DNA of 64,000 nt from Polynucleobacter sp. UK-Gri1-W3 (lineage in GTDB: Bacteria; Pseudomonadota; Gammaproteobacteria; Burkholderiales; Burkholderiaceae): contig NZ_JACVQA010000006.1 of the NCBI RefSeq assembly GCF_018881595.1, positions 62,001-126,000 of the forward strand. Reading direction: 5' to 3'. The position numbers were made by a program, and so were the translations under genes. The notes beneath the pieces were generated by a model. It saw only the letters and a program-made list of their open reading frames with translations, made no database searches and was not told the DNA's origin. The stretch's first letter is position 1. Each line of letters starts with the position of its first letter. Below, in pieces: positions 38,144 through 50,026 of the stretch.

Positions 38144-39661
38144 TTACTTATTTAAAGCTTTGCGTTTGGGGGTCAGGACAGCTTGTGCGAGCAGGGCTAG
38201 AATAGCGGCCGGTATGGCGCCAGCAAGCATTAGGGCTTGATCATTCACAGCAAGCCCGGCTACTATACGGTCGCCAAAGCCACCAGCGCCTACTAATGCT
38301 GCAAGAGTGCAGGTACCGACGCCAATCACAGTAGCTGATGCTAAGCCGGTCATGATGATTGGCTTAGCAGAAGGTAGCTCAATAAAAAGCAATAATTTTC
38401 GCTCATTGCAACCAAGAGCCAAGGCTGCTTCTTTTAGGGTGGCTGGAACCTCCATTAAGCCAATGTGGGTAGCACTCACAATTGGTAGAAGGCCATAAAT
38501 AAATAAAGCCAGAACGGCTGGTACAGCCCCTATTTGATCTAATGCAGCAATCAAAATAGTTAGTAATGCAAGAGAGGGTATCGTTTGTAAAATGCTAACA
38601 GCCCCTAGGATCCATGTCGAAAATTGGGGTCGACGGTATGCAACAATTCCAAGGGGAACTCCAACGAGAAGAGCCATAACTGAAGAAATCGAAACCAACA
38701 GAACATGATCTCGGAGTGCGGTAAAAAAATCTGGGCCAAAAAGTAACTTAAAAAATCTTGAGAGCTTTCTAGGACTCGGTTGATCATGGGTAGATTGATT
38801 TAAAAATCCACGGGCAATAATTTCAAAGCTGATGCCGGACTCAGCCGCATTATTGAGTTTTGCTATTGTTGCTTCATTTAATGTTCCCGCTAATTTTTGT
38901 AGAGGCCTCTCATCAAAATCAGAGCGCATTAATAAGATTGCGTCATATCGTGGAAATGCCTGTCTGTCATCCTCCAATAGAGTCAGATTATTTTTCGTAA
39001 TTGCTGCATCGGTCGAGTATGCATCCACAATGTCGACGTCCCCACGAACAAGGGCATCATAGGCCAGGCCATGCTCCAGCACTTTTTTAGGTTTTATTTT
39101 GAGATCGTAAGTCTGAATAAGTGCAGACCAACCATCACTTCTGGTTTTGAATTCTGGAGATAAGGCAATTCGAAGTGTGGATTGCTGCTCAGTTGATAGA
39201 TTTGTGATGTCACTGATCCGTTTTATGCCTAGCTTACTCGCTTGTTCTGGCCTGATGGCAAGGGCATAAGTGTTGTTAAATCCAAGTGGTATCGCCGCTT
39301 TTAAACCCATAGGCTTGAGCCATGTATTAAGCTCATCTATTGAAGCTTGGGTTTCTGGGCGCTTTAGTATTTCTCGTAAAATAGTACCGGTGTATTCTGG
39401 GTAGACATCAATCTGACCTGTCTTTAGCGCTTGAATAACAATCGCAGTATTACCAAGGCCTTGGCGATGTATAGCCTTTATTCCTGCATCGTGTAATGTG
39501 AGATTCAGAAGCTCTCCAATGACATAGCTTTCTGTAAACCGTTTTGAGCCAACTACGGTTGTTTTTTCTAGAGGCTGAGCCAATACGCAGCAGCTTATAG
39601 TTAGACCAAAATATAAGCTGAGCCTAATCCAAAAAGAGAGGATGTACTTAGTGAAATACAA
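38144..39661 (-). CDS. Osmoprotectant ABC transporter: binding protein-permease fusion
   Basis: 505 aa. A signal peptide (ISCCVLAQ) is followed by an OpuC/ProX-type binding domain (about residues 30-295: VVGSKRFTESYVIGELL, GQIDVYPEYTGT) and then a ProW/OpuCB permease domain (about 310-500: five to six TM, EAALALGCNERKLL EAA loop). It would take up glycine betaine, choline or carnitine. The start appears to be TTG. No ATPase gene lies beside it, so it must use one encoded elsewhere. The order, binding protein first, is the reverse of OpuABC-like fusions. Confidence 0.87.
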   Translation of the reverse strand: MYFTKYILSFWIRLSLYFGLTISCCVLAQPLEKTTVVGSKRFTESYVIGELLNLTLHDAGIKAIHRQGLGNTAIVIQALKTGQIDVYPEYTGTILREILKRPETQASIDELNTWLKPMGLKAAIPLGFNNTYALAIRPEQASKLGIKRISDITNLSTEQQSTLRIALSPEFKTRSDGWSALIQTYDLKIKPKKVLEHGLAYDALVRGDVDIVDAYSTDAAITKNNLTLLEDDRQAFPRYDAILLMRSDFDERPLQKLAGTLNEATIAKLNNAAESGISFEIIARGFLNQSTHDQPSPRKLSRFFKLLFGPDFFTALRDHVLLVSISSVMALLVGVPLGIVAYRRPQFSTWILGAVSILQTIPSLALLTILIAALDQIGAVPAVLALFIYGLLPIVSATHIGLMEVPATLKEAALALGCNERKLLLFIELPSAKPIIMTGLASATVIGVGTCTLAALVGAGGFGDRIVAGLAVNDQALMLAGAIPAAILALLAQAVLTPKRKALNK

Positions 39662-40616: not shown

Positions 40617-40657
40617 AAGCTGTCCTTATTGAATTGCCTATCTAAGTGGGGGTTGTC

Positions 40658-41218
40658 ATGCTGAAGTACATCAACAAATCTCTTGAACAAACCATTAACA
40701 CCTTAATTGATATTACGGCGTATTCACGATTTGGAGTGCCCGTCAGAGCCATTGATATTGCCAAGCGTCAGCATCTTTCGTTAAGTCGGACTGAGATCCT
40801 ACTCTCTACTCTCAGATCGGCCTGCCTTATTCGTGCTGCCAAAGGTCGCAGGGGAGGTTATTTTTTAGCCAAAGACCCGAAAAGTATGACAATCAGAGAT
40901 GTGTTTTCAGCGGTTAACCATACAAGGTCCAGAAAAATTTCTATGAATGATTTGGCAAAAGAAATGATAGATTCTTTTGAGATGTATCTACGAGATTGTT
41001 TATCGAAAATTACCGCTAATTCGGTAGGGAAAAATATTAGAACTCAGCCTGCTCCAATGCAAATTTTGCCAGTATGGGACTCACAAAAATATCAAATTAA
41101 GCCCTTGCTGGAAAGAGCCAAGTGGGATACGCAGACTGTTGTGATTACAAAAGCAGAGATGCAAGTAGCAGAAAAGCTGGGACCTAATTCAATTTTCGAC
41201 TTTAGTAATTACCTTTAA
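40658..41218 (+). CDS. Rrf2-family transcriptional regulator
   Basis: 186 aa from the ATG at 40658 (the frame opens with GTG at 40646). Winged-helix segment VPVRAIDIAKRQHLSLSRTE, then the wing AKGRRGGYFLAKDP, the hallmark of Rrf2 proteins (IscR, NsrR, RsrR). The three-Cys [Fe-S] cluster motif is not clear (only isolated Cys), so it may be a cluster-free member. The long C-terminal part (about 100 residues) is unusual. It probably regulates itself and the micro-ORF via the 30-bp palindrome. Confidence 0.8.
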   Translation: MLKYINKSLEQTINTLIDITAYSRFGVPVRAIDIAKRQHLSLSRTEILLSTLRSACLIRAAKGRRGGYFLAKDPKSMTIRDVFSAVNHTRSRKISMNDLAKEMIDSFEMYLRDCLSKITANSVGKNIRTQPAPMQILPVWDSQKYQIKPLLERAKWDTQTVVITKAEMQVAEKLGPNSIFDFSNYL

Positions 41219-41849: not shown

Positions 41850-41891
41850 AGAATATGATTGCAATAGTTGATTAGCCGAGGTAGCGAAGTA

Positions 41892-42491
41892 ATGATTCAG
41901 ATCCAGATTTGGGCCGACTTTGAGTGTCCATATTGTTATTTTCAAACCATCGTTCTGGAAAATCTACAAGCCAAGTATCAAGGCAGATTAGAAATTGTGT
42001 GGCGAGCATTCGAGTTAATCCCAGTAGAGGGACAAGTGACACCCTCGCAATCCTATAAAGATAACTTTGAGACAGCAAAATCTGAGCCTATCGTTTTAAA
42101 GGAGGGTCTTGAGTTTTTAGTCCCAACTTTTTTAACATATACCTGGCTTGCACAGGAGAGCGTTTACTTCGCTAATTCTCAGGGCTTATCTTTAAAATTG
42201 GCTAGGGCTTTATTTGATGCATTTTTTCTGGGTGGACTTGATATCAGCAGTGAAGAAGTAGTGATGAAGATTGCCTCTAAAGTAGGATTAGACATCCAGC
42301 AGCTGAGGCAGGCACTCGATAATGGTAAATTGACTAAGCAGGTCATGGCCGATGAGCAAGAGTTTAAAACGTATGGGTTTCAGGGATTACCGGCAATGCT
42401 TATTGGTGAGAAGAATTTTTCACCTCGAAGTTTCATGCCTATAACGGGGTATAAAACCCTTGAAGAATTACTTGAGATCTTGCCTAAGTAG
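41892..42491 (+). CDS. DsbA-family oxidoreductase (FrnE/HCCA isomerase type)
   Basis: 199 aa from the ATG at 41892; the frame opens earlier at a TTG. CPYC in WADFECPYCYFQT, cis-Pro region GFQGLPAMLIG, no signal peptide. It lies 38 bp before senA on the same strand, so a redox role in the selenium cluster is conceivable, but unproven. Confidence 0.85.
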   Translation: MIQIQIWADFECPYCYFQTIVLENLQAKYQGRLEIVWRAFELIPVEGQVTPSQSYKDNFETAKSEPIVLKEGLEFLVPTFLTYTWLAQESVYFANSQGLSLKLARALFDAFFLGGLDISSEEVVMKIASKVGLDIQQLRQALDNGKLTKQVMADEQEFKTYGFQGLPAMLIGEKNFSPRSFMPITGYKTLEELLEILPK

Positions 42492-42529: not shown

Positions 42530-43681
42530 ATGACACAGTTTGACTATCTGTGCTACGAGCCTTGGCCATTGCCAAGTAAGCTTCTAATGGATTTAGAGCG
42601 CTCGACTCACATGACACAAACCATCATTGGTAAGCTTGATCATGGCCAGGAAAAGGTCGCCTTATTGCCCGGATTAAATCCCCCGCATTGGGAGTTTGGC
42701 CATCTGATTTGGTTTCATGAATTTTGGGTTCATCGCAAAGGGGTGAAATCTAATCCTTCCTTTTTAGCCCATGCAGATGCTTTATTTAATTCTTCTGAAA
42801 TGATTCATGATGCTCGCTGGCAGGTACAAATACCTTCTATCGATATCTTGATGAATTACTTTTCGGATGTGGTGGAGCGTACACTTGCCATCCTCAGATC
42901 TGGAATCTTGAGTCCTGAGCAGGCTTACTTTATCCAGTTGGCTCTTTATCATGAAGATATGCACAATGAAGCGTTTGCTTATATGTGGCAATCTTTAGGT
43001 TACGTCTGGCCTCTTGAGCAAGGTCTGAAGGCTAGTCAAGACCAACATAATGATGTTGAGTCAAGATATATCCATGTTCCTCAGTGTCAATTTAAACTTG
43101 GGTCTGCACCAAATACAGGCTTTATTTTTGATAATGAGAAATGGCAGCATGAGGTATTAGTACCCAATTTTTCAATTTCAAGTCATGCAGTTAGCAACGG
43201 TGAATATTTAGAGTTTTTAAGATCTTTAAATGATGCAGGAATAAGCTTTATAGAGCATCAACCTGCGTATTGGAAAAAAGAGGGTAATACTTGGTTTGAG
43301 CGATTTTTTGATCAGTGGCGAGAGTTGGATCTCAATGCTTCAGTAAGAAATATCTCTGCCCATAATGCTGAGCGGTATTGTTTATGGAAGGATGTTCGGC
43401 TCCCTACTGAAAATGAGCTTAGCGTCTTAATGACAGCAGCGCGTGAGTCATGGCAACCATCTAGCTTATGGGAGTGGACTAGCAGTATTTTTAAGCCTTT
43501 TGAGGGCTTTAGCCCTGATCCTTATCAAGATTATTCGGCCCCATGGTTTGATAGCAGGCATCGGGTTTTGAAGGGCTGGAGTGTATATACCCCTGACTAT
43601 CTGCGTCGCTCCCAATTCCGTAATTTTTACATACCTTCCCGCAGTGACTTTTTTTGCGGCTTTCGCACCTGTTTGGCATAA
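42530..43681 (+). CDS. senA: SenA/EgtB-type sulfoxide/selenoneine synthase
   Basis: 383 aa. N-terminal DinB-like domain (about residues 20-165) with the non-haem iron motif HEDMHNEAF (HX3HXE) and C-terminal formylglycine-generating-enzyme-like domain (about 190-383: VPQCQFKLGS, RLPTENE, LWEWTSS, RVLKGWS). EgtB joins hercynine to a thiol; SenA joins hercynine to a selenosugar. The neighbouring SelD-like and senB-like genes favour SenA. A glutathione-using EgtB is the alternative. Confidence 0.8.
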   Translation: MTQFDYLCYEPWPLPSKLLMDLERSTHMTQTIIGKLDHGQEKVALLPGLNPPHWEFGHLIWFHEFWVHRKGVKSNPSFLAHADALFNSSEMIHDARWQVQIPSIDILMNYFSDVVERTLAILRSGILSPEQAYFIQLALYHEDMHNEAFAYMWQSLGYVWPLEQGLKASQDQHNDVESRYIHVPQCQFKLGSAPNTGFIFDNEKWQHEVLVPNFSISSHAVSNGEYLEFLRSLNDAGISFIEHQPAYWKKEGNTWFERFFDQWRELDLNASVRNISAHNAERYCLWKDVRLPTENELSVLMTAARESWQPSSLWEWTSSIFKPFEGFSPDPYQDYSAPWFDSRHRVLKGWSVYTPDYLRRSQFRNFYIPSRSDFFCGFRTCLA

Positions 43682-43740
43682 ATTAGGTAAGCTCACATAC
43701 TTAGCTGCCATCTTCTTACTTTTAAATTGAGTTCTTCAAC

Positions 43741-44781
43741 ATGACATATAACGGTCGTCTTACTTCCCTCTCTCATGGCGGGGGCTGTGGTTGCAAAATT
43801 GCTCCAGGTGTCTTGAGCGATATTCTGAAATCTTCCCCTATTCGCCAGATACCTGCTGCACTACTGGCAGGGTCTGATAACAATGAAGATGCCGCTGTTT
43901 ATCAAATCAACGAACATCAAGCGATCGTGGCGACCACAGATTTCTTTATGCCGATTGTCGATGACCCGTATCAATTTGGGCGTATTGCGGCAACAAATGC
44001 GATTTCAGATATTTACGCTATGGGCGCGCAACCTCTATTTGCACTGGCGCTATTAGGTATGCCAATTAATGTTCTTCCTTTGGAGGTGATTCAGCAGATC
44101 ACTGCTGGTGGTGAATCGGTCTGTGCAGAAGCCGGCATCATGATTGCCGGTGGCCACTCGATTGATACTGTAGAACCGATTTATGGCTTGGTTGCCATTG
44201 GCGTAGTAGACCCTAAAAAACTAAAGCGTAATAGTGGTGCAAAGTTAGGCGATAGCATCATCCTTAGCAAGCCCTTGGGTGTAGGAATTCTTTCTGCTGC
44301 GCTGAAAAAAGAGCAGCTTTCTGACTCTGCTTATCAGGAGATGATTGCCTTAACGACTAAGCTGAATAAACCTGGCGTCGCGCTATCCCAACTCGATAGT
44401 GTGCATGCGCTTACGGATGTGACAGGGTTTGGCTTAGCAGGGCACTTATTGGAACTGTGCCGTGGAGCAAAGCTTTCAGCTCAGATTCAGTGGGACTCTA
44501 TTCCAGTAGTTTCTGAGGCGGTCAAGCTGGTAAAAGAAGGTATCTTTACTGGCGCATCACCGCGTAACTGGCTGGGTTATGGTCATGAAATACAGATGGC
44601 CTCTCATTTGAATGAGTGGCAGCAAAACCTCTTGTCCGACCCCCAGACTAGTGGTGGTTTATTAATCTCTTGTAGCCCAGAAGCGACTGAGCAGGTATTA
44701 GAAATTCTCAGAGCAGATGGATTTGCACATGCTCAAAAAATAGGTCAATTTGTACAGGGCTCAGGCGTTTCTGTGGCCTAA
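43741..44781 (+). CDS. senC: Selenide, water dikinase (SelD/SenC)
   Basis: 346 aa. Active-site region HGGGCGCKIAPGVL (about residues 12-25) with the Cys and Lys of SelD, DNNEDAAVY, TTDFFMPIVDDPY and C-terminal SDPQTSGGLLIS. It makes selenophosphate from selenide and ATP. No selA, selB or ybbB lies in the window, and it sits between senA and a transporter, so service to selenoneine is likely. A general selD role cannot be excluded. Confidence 0.88.
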   Translation: MTYNGRLTSLSHGGGCGCKIAPGVLSDILKSSPIRQIPAALLAGSDNNEDAAVYQINEHQAIVATTDFFMPIVDDPYQFGRIAATNAISDIYAMGAQPLFALALLGMPINVLPLEVIQQITAGGESVCAEAGIMIAGGHSIDTVEPIYGLVAIGVVDPKKLKRNSGAKLGDSIILSKPLGVGILSAALKKEQLSDSAYQEMIALTTKLNKPGVALSQLDSVHALTDVTGFGLAGHLLELCRGAKLSAQIQWDSIPVVSEAVKLVKEGIFTGASPRNWLGYGHEIQMASHLNEWQQNLLSDPQTSGGLLISCSPEATEQVLEILRADGFAHAQKIGQFVQGSGVSVA

Positions 44782-44820
44782 GCTCTACTTCTTTAATTCA
44801 ATAGAAAGTATCCAAACAAT

Positions 44821-45693
44821 ATGAAACTAAACACTTTGAAATTTTCACTCGGCCTTGTTTTAGCAACGCTTTGCTTTAGCATGTTCACGCTTCCAGCTCA
44901 GGCGCAAGCCGTCTTACGTGTCTCCGCGATTCCGGATGAATCACCAACTGAGTTACAAAGAAAATTTCTTCCTTTAGGCGAATATCTTTCTAAAGAGACG
45001 GGTATGAAAGTCGAATTCACGCCTGTAACAGACTATGCCGCAGTTGTTGAAGCACTGGCAACAAATAAAATCGATATGGCATGGTTGGGCGGGTTTACCT
45101 ATATTCAAGCAAAAATTCGTACGAATGACGCCGTCAAGCCAATCATTCAGCGTCTTGAAGATGAAAAATTTACGAGTAAATTTATTGTTCCTGAGGCTGG
45201 TTCGGCAAAGACTTTGACTGATTTAAAAGGTAAGACCTTTGCCTTTGGTTCACCATCATCTACCTCAGGCCATTTAATGCCGCGTTTTTATCTAATGAAG
45301 GCAGGCATTAACCCAGACAGAGACTTTAAGAGCATTGCTTTTTCTGGAGCCCATGACGCAACAGTCGCATTTGTTGCTAGCGGTAAAGCAGATGCTGGCG
45401 CTTTAAATGCATCCGTTTGGGATAAATTGTCAGATGCTAAAAATCCTAATACCGAAAAAGTAAAAGTTCTTTATACAACGCCTCCGTATCATGATTACAA
45501 CTGGACCGTACGAGGTGGTTTGGATGCGGCGGTAACTAAAAAAATTAGCGATGCTTTTTTAAAGCTAAATGCTAACGATCCTGCTCAAAAAGAATTAATG
45601 GACCTTCAGAGGGCTAGCAAATATATTCCTACTAAATCATCTAACTACGATGAAATTGAAAAGGCTGCAATTGGTGCTGGTTTGATTAAGTGA
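44821..45693 (+). CDS. PhnD-type periplasmic binding protein, candidate selenium-oxyanion receptor
   Basis: 290 aa, signal peptide ending AQAQA|VLR, then the PhnD fold: SAIPDESPTELQRKF, LGEYLSKETGMKVEF, IDMAWLGGFTYIQA, FAFGSPSSTSGHLMPRF. The family binds phosphonate or phosphite. Here the gene is inside a selenium cluster, and I recall database names of 'putative selenate' for such proteins. The ligand is inferred. Confidence 0.85.
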   Translation: MKLNTLKFSLGLVLATLCFSMFTLPAQAQAVLRVSAIPDESPTELQRKFLPLGEYLSKETGMKVEFTPVTDYAAVVEALATNKIDMAWLGGFTYIQAKIRTNDAVKPIIQRLEDEKFTSKFIVPEAGSAKTLTDLKGKTFAFGSPSSTSGHLMPRFYLMKAGINPDRDFKSIAFSGAHDATVAFVASGKADAGALNASVWDKLSDAKNPNTEKVKVLYTTPPYHDYNWTVRGGLDAAVTKKISDAFLKLNANDPAQKELMDLQRASKYIPTKSSNYDEIEKAAIGAGLIK

Positions 45694-46475
45694 AAAAAAT
45701 AGCATTTGCATTTAAGCAAGTTAGTTTTAGTCATAGCAATGGCAAAGAGGCTCTAAAAAATATCAACATTAGCGCCTCAGCTGGTGAATCCATTGCGATT
45801 ATTGGATCATCTGGCTCTGGCAAAACGAGCTTGCTTAACTTGATAGCGACTTCACTGCGTCCTAGTATTGGATCGATATCAGTATTAGGTATTGATCCAT
45901 GGGCGATTTCAAAAGGGCAATTACGCCGTTTACGCTCTCAAATAGGCTTAGTACATCAAGCAGCTCCGATTCCACCAAAACAAAGAGTGATTACCGCAGT
46001 CTTGGCCGGCCGTCTTGGTCAATGGCCGCTCTGGAAATCTCTTCTGTCATTAATCTATCCGGTAGATATTACGGGTCCGCAGTTGTGTCTGCAAAAACTC
46101 GATCTCGTGGATCGCCTCTTTGATCGTTGTGACCAGCTGTCTGGAGGTCAATTGCAAAGAGTGGGTGTCGCACGTGTGCTGTACCAAAAGCCTCATTTAT
46201 TGCTGGCTGATGAGCCAGTCTCAGCTATGGACCCTGTCCTTTCTGATTTAACAATTCAGCGTCTATTAGAGGATGCTCGTACCAGAGATGCTTGCTTTGT
46301 GGCAAGCCTTCATGCGGTAGATATTGCCCTACGGTGGTTCCCAAGAATCATTGGGCTGAAGTATGGAGAAGTCTTTTTTGACTTACCGGCATCTGAAGTG
46401 AATGAAAGTTTGCTACAGCAGTTGTATGCATCTGAGCATGGTGTTCTGCCAAAGCAAGGTAGTGTAAATACATAG
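45690..46475 (+). CDS. ABC transporter ATP-binding protein (PhnC-type)
   Basis: 261 aa. Walker A GSSGSGKTSLLNL (about residue 38), signature LSGGQLQRVGVARVL (about 149), Walker B LLLADEPVSAMD. It starts within the last codons of the binding-protein gene (ATTAAGTGAAAAAA, with GTG start) and ends 2 bp before the first permease. It powers the PhnD-type importer. Confidence 0.88.
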   Translation: MKKIAFAFKQVSFSHSNGKEALKNINISASAGESIAIIGSSGSGKTSLLNLIATSLRPSIGSISVLGIDPWAISKGQLRRLRSQIGLVHQAAPIPPKQRVITAVLAGRLGQWPLWKSLLSLIYPVDITGPQLCLQKLDLVDRLFDRCDQLSGGQLQRVGVARVLYQKPHLLLADEPVSAMDPVLSDLTIQRLLEDARTRDACFVASLHAVDIALRWFPRIIGLKYGEVFFDLPASEVNESLLQQLYASEHGVLPKQGSVNT

Positions 46476-46477
46476 CC

Positions 46478-47305
46478 ATGGAAAGAGTGGTCTATTTTAG
46501 GGATCCAGATGCGCTCAAGCGTATTTTGGTGACGTGTATTGCATTAACGATTTTATGGCCAATGATGCAATTGGCGCAGTTTGATGTATTTGCATTATTT
46601 GAAGTTAGCAACCTCAAAGTTTTTACCAACTTCTTAATTCAGTTTTTTCCGCCCAATCTTCAGGCATCATTTTTAGTGCTAGTGCTTAAGGCTACTTTAG
46701 AGACTTTAGCCATGGCAACTGCAGGCATTGCTCTGGCAATGCTGATGGCAATTCCACTGGGCCTCATCATCACTTATAGTCTATCGATTTCGCGTATTGG
46801 CCCTGCCTCAGGTCACCGCGTTGCAAAACTTGGTAGATATCTTGCCCGAATGCTGATGTTATTACTCAGAGGTATTCCAGAAATTGTATGGGCCTTGCTG
46901 TTGGTGAGAGTGTTTGGTTTAGGCCCAATCGCAGGCGTGCTAGCAATTGCTATTACCTATGGTGGCATGCTCGCAAAAGTGTATTCCGAAATCTTAGAGA
47001 CTGAAAACACCCTACCCGCTAAAGCGCTAATAATGTTAGGTAGCGGCCGTATCAATGCATTTTTATATGGGTTATTGCCAGGCGCCTCACAAGAGCTAGC
47101 CTCTTACACAATCTATCGCTGGGAATGCGCAGTTAGGGCCTCGGTTGTCATGGGCTTTGTAGGTGCTGGTGGCCTAGGACAGCTTATGGACCAGTCAATG
47201 AAGATGCTCAACGGTGGTGAAGTATCTACCATTCTCATCGTATTTTTGCTGCTTGTTTTACTCGCTGACTACATCAGTCTCATTATTCGTCGGCAACTCG
47301 CATGA
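46478..47305 (+). CDS. ABC transporter permease (PhnE-type), first
   Basis: 275 aa, about six TM helices; EAA-type loop PAKALIMLGSGRINAFLYGLLP (its first 20 residues) and the PhnE-like FVGAGGLGQLMDQS. It overlaps the second permease by 4 bp. Two separate permeases suggest a heterodimeric channel. Confidence 0.87.
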   Translation: MERVVYFRDPDALKRILVTCIALTILWPMMQLAQFDVFALFEVSNLKVFTNFLIQFFPPNLQASFLVLVLKATLETLAMATAGIALAMLMAIPLGLIITYSLSISRIGPASGHRVAKLGRYLARMLMLLLRGIPEIVWALLLVRVFGLGPIAGVLAIAITYGGMLAKVYSEILETENTLPAKALIMLGSGRINAFLYGLLPGASQELASYTIYRWECAVRASVVMGFVGAGGLGQLMDQSMKMLNGGEVSTILIVFLLLVLLADYISLIIRRQLA

Positions 47306-48096
47306 ACCGCTATCCTGCTCGCGAATTTTGTCTAAAGTGTCTCATTACGCTTATGCTGATTGCGCTATTTATTGTGGTGAGCTTTGTGTATCTTTCATTT
47401 AATCCTCTAGCTTTGTTTACTAAACAAGCTATGAGTGATGTTGTTATTTATACAGCGCGCTTTTTTCCACCAGATCTCTCGCCATCTTTTTTGCAGAAGG
47501 TGTGGAGTGGTGTATTGCAGACCTTGGCCATCTCTGCCTTAGCCACTTTATTAGCGGCAATTGTGAGCCTTTTTCTAGCGCTACCTGCAGCTGGACAGTT
47601 TGGTCATAGCGCAAAAGTGGTGACCCGTTTTTTCTTAAATTTTTTGCGCTCGGTGCCAGAGCTTGTTTGGGCGGTATTAATGGTACTAGCAGTAGGTTTA
47701 GGACCATTTGCTGGAACCCTAGCGCTCGCCTTGCACACCACAGGAGTGCTAGGGCGTTTATTTGGCGAAACCCTGGAAAATCACTCTCCCAAAGCAACTC
47801 AAGCGCTGAGATTGGCTGGGGCAAGTAACACTCAAGCATTTATTTATGGGGCTTTGCCAGGGATCTATTCTCAACTACTCTCTTATAGCCTTTATCGTTG
47901 GGAAATGAATATACGTATGGCTACGATATTGGGATTTGTCGGTGCAGGGGGTCTTGGACAAATTCTGTACTACGAACTCTCTTTATTACATGAGCAGCAA
48001 GCCTCAACAGTCATCATAGCAATGCTGGTATTAGTCATTGGTGTAGACATGATTAGCAATAAACTCCGTAGAGTACAAATGCACAGTCTTGGCTAA
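47302..48096 (+). CDS. ABC transporter permease (PhnE-type), second
   Basis: 264 aa, paralogue of the preceding gene: FLRSVPELVWAVLMVLAVGL, TGVLGRLFGETLEN, ATILGFVGAGGLGQILYYEL. The ATG overlaps the stop of the first permease. It is 29 bp before egtD. Confidence 0.87.
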   Translation: MNRYPAREFCLKCLITLMLIALFIVVSFVYLSFNPLALFTKQAMSDVVIYTARFFPPDLSPSFLQKVWSGVLQTLAISALATLLAAIVSLFLALPAAGQFGHSAKVVTRFFLNFLRSVPELVWAVLMVLAVGLGPFAGTLALALHTTGVLGRLFGETLENHSPKATQALRLAGASNTQAFIYGALPGIYSQLLSYSLYRWEMNIRMATILGFVGAGGLGQILYYELSLLHEQQASTVIIAMLVLVIGVDMISNKLRRVQMHSLG

Positions 48097-48125
48097 ATTA
48101 GGTAATATGAAAAAGGAATATTGAA

Positions 48126-49058
48126 GTGAGTCAAGAGAAATTGTCCGGTCAAAAATTAACTGATGAAATTATTGCTGGTCTTTTGCAAGAGCAGCCAGCG
48201 ATATCACCAAAGTTTTTCTATGATGAGATTGGCTCTCACTTATTTGAGGCAATTACTTTTTTGGAGGAGTATTACCCAACCCGAACTGAAAAACAAATCA
48301 TGGCGCAATATGGCGAAGCAATGGCTTTGACGATTGGAAAGTGCGATGTTTTATTGGACTTAGGGGCTGGTAACTGTGAAAAGGGTAGTGCATTATTTGA
48401 TACCTTATTGCCCAAAGAATATCGGGCGCTAGACATCTCAAAAGAATTTTTAGAGCAAGCAATCTCAGGCTTGCAAAAAGAATTCCCACAAATTCAGATG
48501 CAGGCACAAACCTGTGATTTACACGAAGAAATGGCGTTTCCTGATTTGGTAGGTCGAAAGAAAACTTTTTTTTATCCAGGCTCTTCTATTGGAAATTTTG
48601 ACCCAGATGCTGCGCTAGGGCTATTCAAAAATATTGTGAAAGTTTGCCAGGGTGATGGGGGTTTATTGATCGGCGTTGATCTAGTTAAGGGTCACGAAGT
48701 TCTATCTCGAGCTTATAACGATTCTCTTGGAATTACTGCCGCTTTCAATAAAAATATCCTCTTGCACCTGAATCGTCTTGTTAAAACCGATTTCAATTTA
48801 GAGTATTGGGAACACTACGCAATTTTTAATGAGCAACTTGCTAGAATCGAAATGTATCTTCGATCCACTCGGAGTCAATTAGTTTCGTTCCCCGGTGGTG
48901 AAAGGCGTTTTGATAGCGGTGCGTTTATTCATACTGAAAATAGCTATAAGTACACGCAAGAAAAATTTGAATCTCTTTTAATGAGTGCTGGTTTTAAAGC
49001 TGTACATTCCTGGACTGATTCAAATTGCTACTTTTTAGTTGCTTATGCGACAGCATAG
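48126..49058 (+). CDS. egtD: L-histidine N-alpha-methyltransferase
   Basis: 310 aa from a GTG start. SAM motif LLDLGAGNCEKGSALF (about residue 76), the conserved PKFFYDEIGSHLFEAIT at the N-terminus and FFYPGSSIGNFDP near 140 identify the EgtD family, which trimethylates histidine to hercynine. This is the precursor for SenA. No egtA, egtC or egtE is near, consistent with selenoneine rather than mycobacterial-type ergothioneine. Confidence 0.9.
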   Translation: MSQEKLSGQKLTDEIIAGLLQEQPAISPKFFYDEIGSHLFEAITFLEEYYPTRTEKQIMAQYGEAMALTIGKCDVLLDLGAGNCEKGSALFDTLLPKEYRALDISKEFLEQAISGLQKEFPQIQMQAQTCDLHEEMAFPDLVGRKKTFFYPGSSIGNFDPDAALGLFKNIVKVCQGDGGLLIGVDLVKGHEVLSRAYNDSLGITAAFNKNILLHLNRLVKTDFNLEYWEHYAIFNEQLARIEMYLRSTRSQLVSFPGGERRFDSGAFIHTENSYKYTQEKFESLLMSAGFKAVHSWTDSNCYFLVAYATA

Positions 49059-49059
49059 G

Positions 49060-49087
49060 GCCTGATTGATTATTTAATCAGGCTTTT
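49060..49087. terminator. Bidirectional terminator between egtD and senB
   Basis: GCCTGATT / AATCAGGC with an 8-nt loop and TTTT on the plus side. It overlaps the last codons of senB. Confidence 0.8.
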
Positions 49088-50026
49088 AATGAGCTTTTGA
49101 ATAGATTTTTGCTCTAATTCTGGCTTAGTGATCTTCTGTCGCAAAGCAATCGCCCTACTTAATTTTTGATAAAAGGCTGGATTGGTTTCAGCCTTGGTTA
49201 GTAGTTTGCTTAAAGCAAGTGTATCGCCTACTGGATAGTAAGCGGGGTAGGTATCTCCTAGTAAGCCGCGATTACCTGGAATATCTGATGCAATTACGGG
49301 GATGCCAATAGAAGTGGCCTCAGACACCACATGGGCGCCACCTTCCATAACGCTGGAGATTATCATCACGTGTGAGCGAGAGAGCCACTGTAGTGTCTTA
49401 GAGTGACTCAGCTGGCCTAACCATCGATAACGCTTCACGTTTTTTTCAATAGAGAGTGCTTGCTTTTTAAACTCCGAACTCATTGCCTTGCCGAGTTGTA
49501 CCAGCTGAATCTTGCTGTTTGAGGGCAAGTGGGACAGACATTGCGCAGCACAAAAAGGATCTTTTTCTGAGCGCAGGTGGCCAATGATGCTGGCTAAAAA
49601 ATGACGTTTTGGTGGCGATTTTCTAGTGACACCTTTTACTGACTGGTAAATCACTTGGACTTTATGATGAAATTGCTTAGGCAAGGATTGAATAGCATCT
49701 GGTTGAAGAACCACAATCGCATCAGCCATCTCCATTGACTTGATAACTTTAGTGGAGTTTTTTAGGTCTCGGTAGATGTCTGTTCCGGTCATGATTAAAA
49801 CGACTGGATGATTGGGGTAAGCTTTTTTAAACCCTTGAATAGAGTCATGACTTCGTAGCCCATGCAGTGCAATCAGAACATCACATGGCTTTTTAGACCA
49901 TTGCTCTGTAATAGCGCTTTGGTAATTGAGGCGTAACAAGAATTTATTCCACCGTAAAGCAGTAATACGGTTTCCGTGAAGGGTGCCGGGGGGTGCAGGC
50001 GTTACGATTTCAATACGCAGTTTCAA
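49070..50026 (-). CDS. senB: Selenosugar synthase, glycosyltransferase-like
   Basis: 318 aa, GT4-like fold. The N-terminus reads IEIVTPAPPGTLHGNRITA, and HGLRSHDSI, MTGTDIYRDL, HLRSEKDPFCAA, and the C-terminal SVMEGGAHVVSEATSIGIPV with SDIPGNRGLLG follow. The TPAPPG..HGNR..A.RW pattern is what I associate with SenB, which makes a selenosugar from selenophosphate and UDP-sugar. It starts with a TTG that aligns well. It is convergent with the senA-egtD operon. Confidence 0.83.
   Translation of the reverse strand: MKLRIEIVTPAPPGTLHGNRITALRWNKFLLRLNYQSAITEQWSKKPCDVLIALHGLRSHDSIQGFKKAYPNHPVVLIMTGTDIYRDLKNSTKVIKSMEMADAIVVLQPDAIQSLPKQFHHKVQVIYQSVKGVTRKSPPKRHFLASIIGHLRSEKDPFCAAQCLSHLPSNSKIQLVQLGKAMSSEFKKQALSIEKNVKRYRWLGQLSHSKTLQWLSRSHVMIISSVMEGGAHVVSEATSIGIPVIASDIPGNRGLLGDTYPAYYPVGDTLALSKLLTKAETNPAFYQKLSRAIALRQKITKPELEQKSIQKLIKSLIK

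Follow-up and report, generated by a model that had tools for sequence, protein, structure and literature searches.

Selenoneine synthesis has been described in Variovorax paradoxus DSM 30034, where the senABC cluster encodes SenA, SenB and the selenide, water dikinase SelD (SenC), with hercynine coming from EgtD. In the main texts of two reports (PMC10891094, PMC10702425) the selenoneine cluster consists of three genes and the word 'transporter' does not appear. The present study concerns a cluster of Polynucleobacter sp. UK-Gri1-W3 that contains the same biosynthetic genes and, unlike that of V. paradoxus, incorporates a full ATP-binding cassette (ABC) importer of the PhnDCEE type. It is located at positions 42530-50026 of a stretch of 64,000 nucleotides, hereafter the window (contig NZ_JACVQA010000006.1, positions 62,001 to 126,000; assembly GCF_018881595.1, 2.30 Mb in 22 contigs). 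In the selenoneine literature searched, which did not include the original 2022 report, nothing was found that links sen genes to a PhnD-type importer. From sequence evidence, the four genes probably encode a high-affinity importer that would feed SelD with a selenium oxyanion, hydrogen-selenite (HSeO3-) being the likeliest.

YedE/YedF belong to a protein family other than the PhnD-type substrate-binding proteins (SBPs). Like the importer considered here, they were predicted to transport selenium from their co-occurrence with SelD, and none of the genes deleted in M. maripaludis, yedE included, is reported to be required for any selenium species tested (PMC11097638). This 2024 study and two reviews, of 2022 and 2026, agree that prokaryotes have no identified transporter that is specific (high-affinity) for selenium, or none of which the authors know. 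An ABC transporter-related ATPase, for which only pfam00005 is named, has been proposed as a partner of orphan selD in an unknown selenium trait (Peng 2016, PMC5029168).

The window SBP scores above the curated cut-off of the NCBIfam family TIGR04553, a hypothetical equivalog named "putative selenate ABC transporter". The selenium idea is thus not wholly new for this family and already exists as a database prediction. No functional test of the family was found in the literature under its name, and no measurement of selenium-compound binding or transport turned up in the literature searched, mostly at listing level; one paper repeats the annotation and reads the system as an exporter. While the kind of transporter and the suggestive family name were already known, the present work adds the quantified link to selenoneine, the prediction of selenite and the extension to marine PhnD1. 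It provides a concrete and widespread candidate for a selenium importer, for which there are a structural model, a predicted ligand and Polynucleobacter and Variovorax as possible hosts.

The other described relatives are phosphorus (P) systems. E. coli PhnDCE shares the fold and the types of components, but the window SBP reaches 193 bits on the PhnD model (cut-off 261) and has a Tyr cap in place of the D/T/E cap. The C-P lyase protein PhnJ was not found in the source genome, hydrolytic phosphonate pathways not being tested, and it was lacking in 26 others of the 38 carriers tested. An ordinary phosphonate importer was rejected on these three grounds. PhnDCE with PhnD1 (PDB 5LQ5, 5LQ8, 7S6G) occurs throughout Prochlorococcus and in many marine Synechococcus, and PhnD1 has been crystallised from both genera. 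Unlike the window SBP, PhnD1 has been characterised as a phosphite/phosphate binder and its genomic context is tesA, with no selenium gene mentioned alongside in what Shah 2023 describes.

Association of the importer with genes for selenium use

Eight open frames were confirmed between 42530 and 50026 by ORF and family scans (Table 1), in agreement with the preliminary description, which had reported SenA-, SenC(SelD)-, SenB- and EgtD-like genes together and had placed the four-gene importer exactly between senC and egtD. SenA, SelD, the SBP, PhnC, two PhnE and EgtD form a co-directional run with successive gaps of 59, 39, -4, 2, -4 and 29 bp, and the convergent SenB lies 11 bp from EgtD. With such gaps the importer genes are counted as part of the run, whose spacing suggests a single operon from SenA to EgtD. 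The closest named relatives of the SBP are Polynucleobacter proteins with 96% identity. Near-identical clusters were found in other Polynucleobacter (for instance loci L067 and L082) and distant genomes have much the same set of genes, with proteins 25-43% identical (L222, L223, L227); this recurrence argues that the arrangement is not due to chance.

Co-occurrence was counted in a family sample of 249 genomes, at least 90% complete, and in a class sample of 370 genomes drawn across the class; all Fisher values ignore relatedness. In the family sample the SBP was observed above cut-off in 9/249 genomes, SenB in 15/249 and SelD in 196/249. All nine SBP genomes, which span four genera, carry SenB (p 6e-13, or 9e-12 minus the window's genome; a partial SenB of 252 bits in G067 was left uncounted). 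As SelD is so common, the importer tracks SenB rather than SelD in this family, and the tie does not come from linkage alone since SBP and SenB are far apart in two genomes (G240, G241). Within the genus (32 genomes), the importer was present in 5/9 SenB genomes and 0/23 others. None of 14 control genomes had a match above the SBP or SenB cut-off.

In the class sample, 14/370 genomes carry the SBP, 23/370 SenB and 10 both. Minus the own genome, SenB was found in 9/13 SBP carriers versus 13/356 others (p 1e-9), and it was located in the fetched flank of 6/13 loci; it lies about 16 kb from the SBP in G516, 114 kb in G418 and on another contig in G598. SelD was above cut-off in all 13 SBP carriers among 80 class genomes, in 4/15 genomes with only a below-cut-off relative and in 7/52 with none. 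These 52 are the first in the list and a non-random control, from which the SenB-positive G336, G338 and G349 were left out; in the worst case, with all three counted as SelD-positive, the control rises to 10/55 (p 4e-8). None of the 15 class loci with a below-cut-off relative had SenA, SenB, SelD, EgtD or MnmH in the flank, and SenB was found elsewhere in the genome in two of that set (G408, G463). A joint decay was observed in one relative (G089, locus L072): SenA, SBP and SenB are all fragmented at one place, SelD is apparently whole and PhnE was not found.

Neighbours were counted within the fetched flanks of 77 named loci, which are matches to the window SBP. The window's proteins served as queries along with three neighbours, at > 80 bits; diverged genes may escape this threshold, as did SelD at the edge of L231, which was visible only at a lower one. 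SenA and/or SenB was present at 27 loci, selD and mnmH without sen genes at 17, and selD alone at 1. The rest comprise 6 loci with a CysB/CysI-type gene (cys regulator/reductase) and 26 with none of these. MnmH, which is linked to tRNA 2-selenouridine, scores 513 bits at locus L108. The importer is therefore not dedicated to selenoneine and goes elsewhere with selD and mnmH. The preliminary description had suggested dedicated uptake of selenate, selenite or an organoselenium compound: selenium uptake is supported computationally by the co-occurrence, the linkage to two selenium pathways and the joint decay in G089, while the dedication to selenoneine does not stand.

Whole genomes were searched for 50 of the 77 loci, namely L095 and all those lacking sen genes except L144 (49 of 50). 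SelD was above cut-off in 44 and SenB in 12, with a partial SenB in 1, and MnmH was found in 38 of the 40 genomes searched for it. Among ten metagenome-assembled genomes (MAGs) with no selenium gene near the importer (L122, L126-L133, L155), SenB was present elsewhere in 8, partial in 1 and absent in 1. In nine of the ten MAGs of this third context, the SelD frame contains one TGA somewhere inside it, as in selenoprotein SelDs. The importer was also observed near a CysB-type regulator in six betaproteobacterial MAGs (L126, L130, L131, L155, L122, L133; L155 is titled 'bacterium'); a sulfite-reductase-like gene is near the importer in 4 of these six loci, and SenB is elsewhere in the genome.

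A second SBP lineage (L222-L227 and L230-L233) is 34-38% identical to the window SBP in the three proteins measured. At five of its loci, sen genes stand beside a SelD of 753-829 residues. In L224 and L225 this SelD has an N-terminal pyridine-nucleotide oxidoreductase (TIGR03169, 508/484 bits) fused to SelD (302/289 bits, cut-off 125), and the NCBI "fusion_not_SelD" model is below cut-off for both. Such a reductase-SelD fusion would suit an imported substrate that needs reduction to selenide. That two SBP lineages share this kind of gene set argues for the import of a selenium oxyanion.

Binding pocket and kinship with PhnD1

The structure model of the window SBP has a mean pLDDT (a per-residue confidence score) of 90.5. 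Its nearest fold is PhnD1 7S6G (TM, the fold-similarity score, 0.84), followed by 5LQ5/5LQ8 and then PtxB; the arsenic-oxyanion proteins ArrX and AioX also match. Pocket geometry was judged by alignment to 5LQ5 and from published contacts. The ten contacts D39, Y72, F117, S147, T148, S149, H178, N196, D225 and the cap Y226 are those of PhnD1, and each is conserved in 95 or more of 98 aligned selenium-linked proteins, the D225 position being D in 95/98 rows and N in 3/98. Because the F and the D are shared by 8/18 and 10/18 below-cut-off relatives, respectively, the pocket is not unique to the clade. The window SBP matched neither the PtxB-type pocket (Tyr at F117, Gln at D225) nor the PtxB clade; PtxD was not searched.

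On the TIGR04553 model (cut-off 250), 7S6G scores 337, 5LQ5 299 and PtxB 163. The selenium-linked proteins group together with PhnD1 (97/93) in a 60-row tree, and within this group PhnD1 is sister to the second lineage (100/99). PhnD1 shares 10 of 13 clade-signature residues and PtxB 2 of 13.

Selenite occurs near neutral pH as HSeO3-, and selenate is completely ionised there, as SeO4 2-. From the Asp contact of Pm_PhnD, its phosphite was concluded to be mono-anionic and protonated (Bisson 2017). By chemical analogy, selenite is predicted as the ligand because this Asp would pair with a protonated oxygen, and the identity of the pocket to that of PhnD1, together with its conservation, argues for import of hydrogen-selenite. 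Among the three ligands that the preliminary description had left side by side, hydrogen-selenite would best fit the pocket, selenate and bulky organoselenium being disfavoured.

In the proposed mechanism, Y72, S147-T148-S149 and H178 would hold three ligand oxygens, D225 would accept a hydrogen bond from the protonated one and Y226 would close over the fourth position, which is H in phosphite and a lone pair in selenite. The ATPase and the two permeases would carry the ion into the cytoplasm, and the imported selenite would be reduced to selenide. SelD would then form selenophosphate, SenB the selenosugar and EgtD hercynine, which SenA would couple into selenoneine. Selenophosphate also supplies MnmH, whose gene is on another contig of the source genome.

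Selenite weighed against other substrates

Several findings that count against a selenite importer concern phosphorus. A P importer of the PhnD1 type, lying in a sen operon incidentally, would have the very same ten contacts, and the pocket alone does not tell selenium from phosphorus. PhnD1 is of the same clade and is a binder of phosphite (0.05-4.3 uM) and of phosphate (7-182 uM; Bisson 2017; Shah 2023). With two solved proteins above the NCBIfam cut-off binding phosphite or phosphate, the phosphite- or phosphonate-specific binder that the preliminary description had named as a refuting case keeps some probability. In a screen of diverse compounds, PhnD1 is reported to have shifted with P sources only, with a panel (given in the supplement) that may not include selenium, and PhnD1CE was induced in P-deficient medium in Synechococcus WH8102, not in some Prochlorococcus (Shah 2023). 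A 'phosphonate/selenate' SBP of P. putida, similar by annotation, rose from 0.31% to 0.96% of the exoproteome on phosphate depletion. Nevertheless, a P importer seems unlikely: the SBP is strongly associated with SenB and SelD in both samples, it adjoins selD and mnmH in 17/77 loci, and it decays jointly with sen genes in G089. In addition, P. marinus MIT9301 is described as having a PhnD1 gene that does not respond to P and whose in vivo function is unknown to the authors (Bisson 2017), and no growth on phosphite is reported for strains that have PhnD1 and lack PtxABCD-type genes.

Import of selenate, as the NCBIfam name says, would agree with the six named loci at which a CysB-type regulator, a sulfite-reductase-like gene or both accompany the SBP, a setting for possible selenate reduction. 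It is nonetheless distinctly improbable, given the full ionisation of selenate, the conservation of D225, which is the ligand-contact Asp of Pm_PhnD from which a protonated oxygen was inferred, and a name behind which the literature under it yielded no test. An organoselenium or sulfur compound such as methylseleninate, a selenosugar or hercynine might be thought of, as SenB chemistry uses selenosugars and as methylseleninate is small and resembles methylphosphonate, a weak PhnD1 ligand (Shah 2023). This we judge very unlikely: the contacts are directed at an XO3 group, and the Tyr cap leaves a small closed pocket that is described as excluding bulky groups such as 2-aminoethylphosphonate (2-AEP). 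Finally, the operon might yield ergothioneine instead of selenoneine, with an importer unrelated to selenium. SenA, the weakest identification among the cluster genes, indeed falls short of the curated cut-off of the NCBIfam SenA model. Yet that model is its top one and is ahead by about 195 bits of the EgtB model (185 bits), its best PDB matches are solved SenA enzymes, and SenB and SelD are part of the cluster, the latter with EgtD in the same run as the importer. The case of ergothioneine only, raised in the preliminary description, was not borne out: besides the window SenA (174 bits in the genome search, EgtB cut-off 360), the genome contains no EgtB-family match at E <= 1e-20 and no EgtB above cut-off, oxygen-independent ergothioneine enzymes not being searched for. 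It was rejected on this basis and appears most improbable.

Other observations count against a selenium importer more generally. Both selenite and selenate reportedly enter E. coli through its sulfate transporter, and a dedicated selenium importer is thus not indispensable. SenB was missing in 4/14 SBP carriers of the class, and it was present without the SBP in 6/15 family and 13/23 class genomes. SelD and MnmH are found in 32/32 genus members, of which 27 have no intact importer, so that the importer is unnecessary for tRNA selenouridine in this genus. Among the 50 genomes searched, 6 have no SelD above cut-off. Five of these are MAGs, of which two have SenB and three MnmH, one having both; SelD, SenB and MnmH are all missing from one Pseudomonas MAG and from the isolate P. 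anguilliseptica MatS1.

The kinship described above raises the question of the marine proteins themselves. PhnD1CE of Prochlorococcus and Synechococcus may be a selenite importer feeding tRNA selenouridine or other selenium products, the tight phosphite binding being a mimicry of HSeO3-; we put this forward tentatively, as a possibility somewhat less probable than its negation. It is suggested by the place of PhnD1 inside the selenium-linked clade, sister to proteins several of which are embedded in sen clusters with an oxidoreductase-fused SelD, and by the shared signature residues together with the SelD with NADH-dehydrogenase-like extension reported in P. marinus and Synechococcus and the ybbB found with selD in cyanobacteria (Romero 2005). 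The co-occurrence of PhnD1, SelD and MnmH in cyanobacteria rests on literature. Against it, E113 of the selenium-linked proteins is Ile in PhnD1, and three Prochlorococcus genomes (W7-W9) are listed with SelD and no known selenium trait (Peng 2016, PMC5029168). No PhnD1 relatives were found in viral contigs. The PhnD1 system is called paradoxical in Shah 2023, where a phosphate importer is proposed, and the main texts of Bisson 2017 and Shah 2023 contain no word beginning with "selen". A selenite importer would offer an answer to the puzzle of the marine PhnDCE role: the TIGR04553 "selenate" genes and the PhnD1 "phosphite" genes may be one selenite system, which, if true, would place a selenite importer in the ocean's commonest phototrophs.

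Cluster genes and their surroundings

Table 1. Genes of the selenoneine cluster, with window positions and model scores
Feature	Position	Strand	Evidence
SenA-like selenoneine synthase, DinB + FGE-sulfatase domains	42530..43681	+	NF041186 380 bits, cut-off 420; PDB 8ryz/8k5i E 2e-62
SelD/SenC selenide, water dikinase	43741..44781	+	PRK00943 521 bits, cut-off 299; TIGR00476 425, cut-off 125
Periplasmic binding protein (SBP), PhnD fold, probable selenite binder	44821..45693	+	TIGR04553 367.5 bits, cut-off 250
PhnC-like ABC ATPase	45690..46475	+	TIGR02315 204 bits, under 266 cut-off
PhnE-like permease 1	46478..47305	+	TIGR01097 190 bits, under 217 cut-off
PhnE-like permease 2	47302..48096	+	TIGR01097 256 bits, cut-off 217
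EgtD histidine N-alpha-methyltransferase (hercynine)	48126..49058	+	342 bits, cut-off 291; genome's sole match
SenB selenosugar synthase, convergent	49070..50026	-	367 bits, cut-off 300; EGGAHV motif + GHLR..K lysine

The GH and HEDMH histidines of the window SenA, residues with a metal role, align with those of SenA, and a sister Polynucleobacter SenA reaches 392 bits on the SenA model. In SenB, the EGGAHV motif and the region of the GHLR..K lysine align to the solved enzyme 8jjn; this motif and K158 are named in PMC10891094.

Other arrangements were observed among relatives. In P. anguilliseptica MatS1 (L157:10001-10771) a divergent SBP (52%) stands alone, PhnC/E not having been found next to it, and is possibly a remnant. 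Three Polynucleobacter (L075 in G194, L076 in G182, L078 in G151) have SenB and no SenA/EgtB-family match at 1e-20. In L076, a major facilitator superfamily (MFS) permease, TonB and a TonB-dependent receptor adjoin SenB, and the neighbours in L075 match them at 85-94% identity; in L078, TonB, ExbB, ExbD and another MFS gene are near SenB. Perhaps these loci serve another selenosugar product and another route of selenium uptake.

Upstream of the cluster, the OpuBC-type gene at 38144-39661 was considered as an ergothioneine/selenoneine importer and dropped, its best solved relatives being ProX-type osmoprotectant binders, with EgtU weaker. It encodes a fused OpuAC-type binding domain and permease and is also found near sen genes in Polynucleobacter L072, L082, L083, L086 and L087. 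An Rrf2-family regulator is located at 40646-41218, with a weak homologue near the sen genes of L071. Finally, a DsbA-like gene at 41868-42491, 38 bp upstream of senA, occupies the same place in L082, L083 and L086, and its product is a possible thiol partner.

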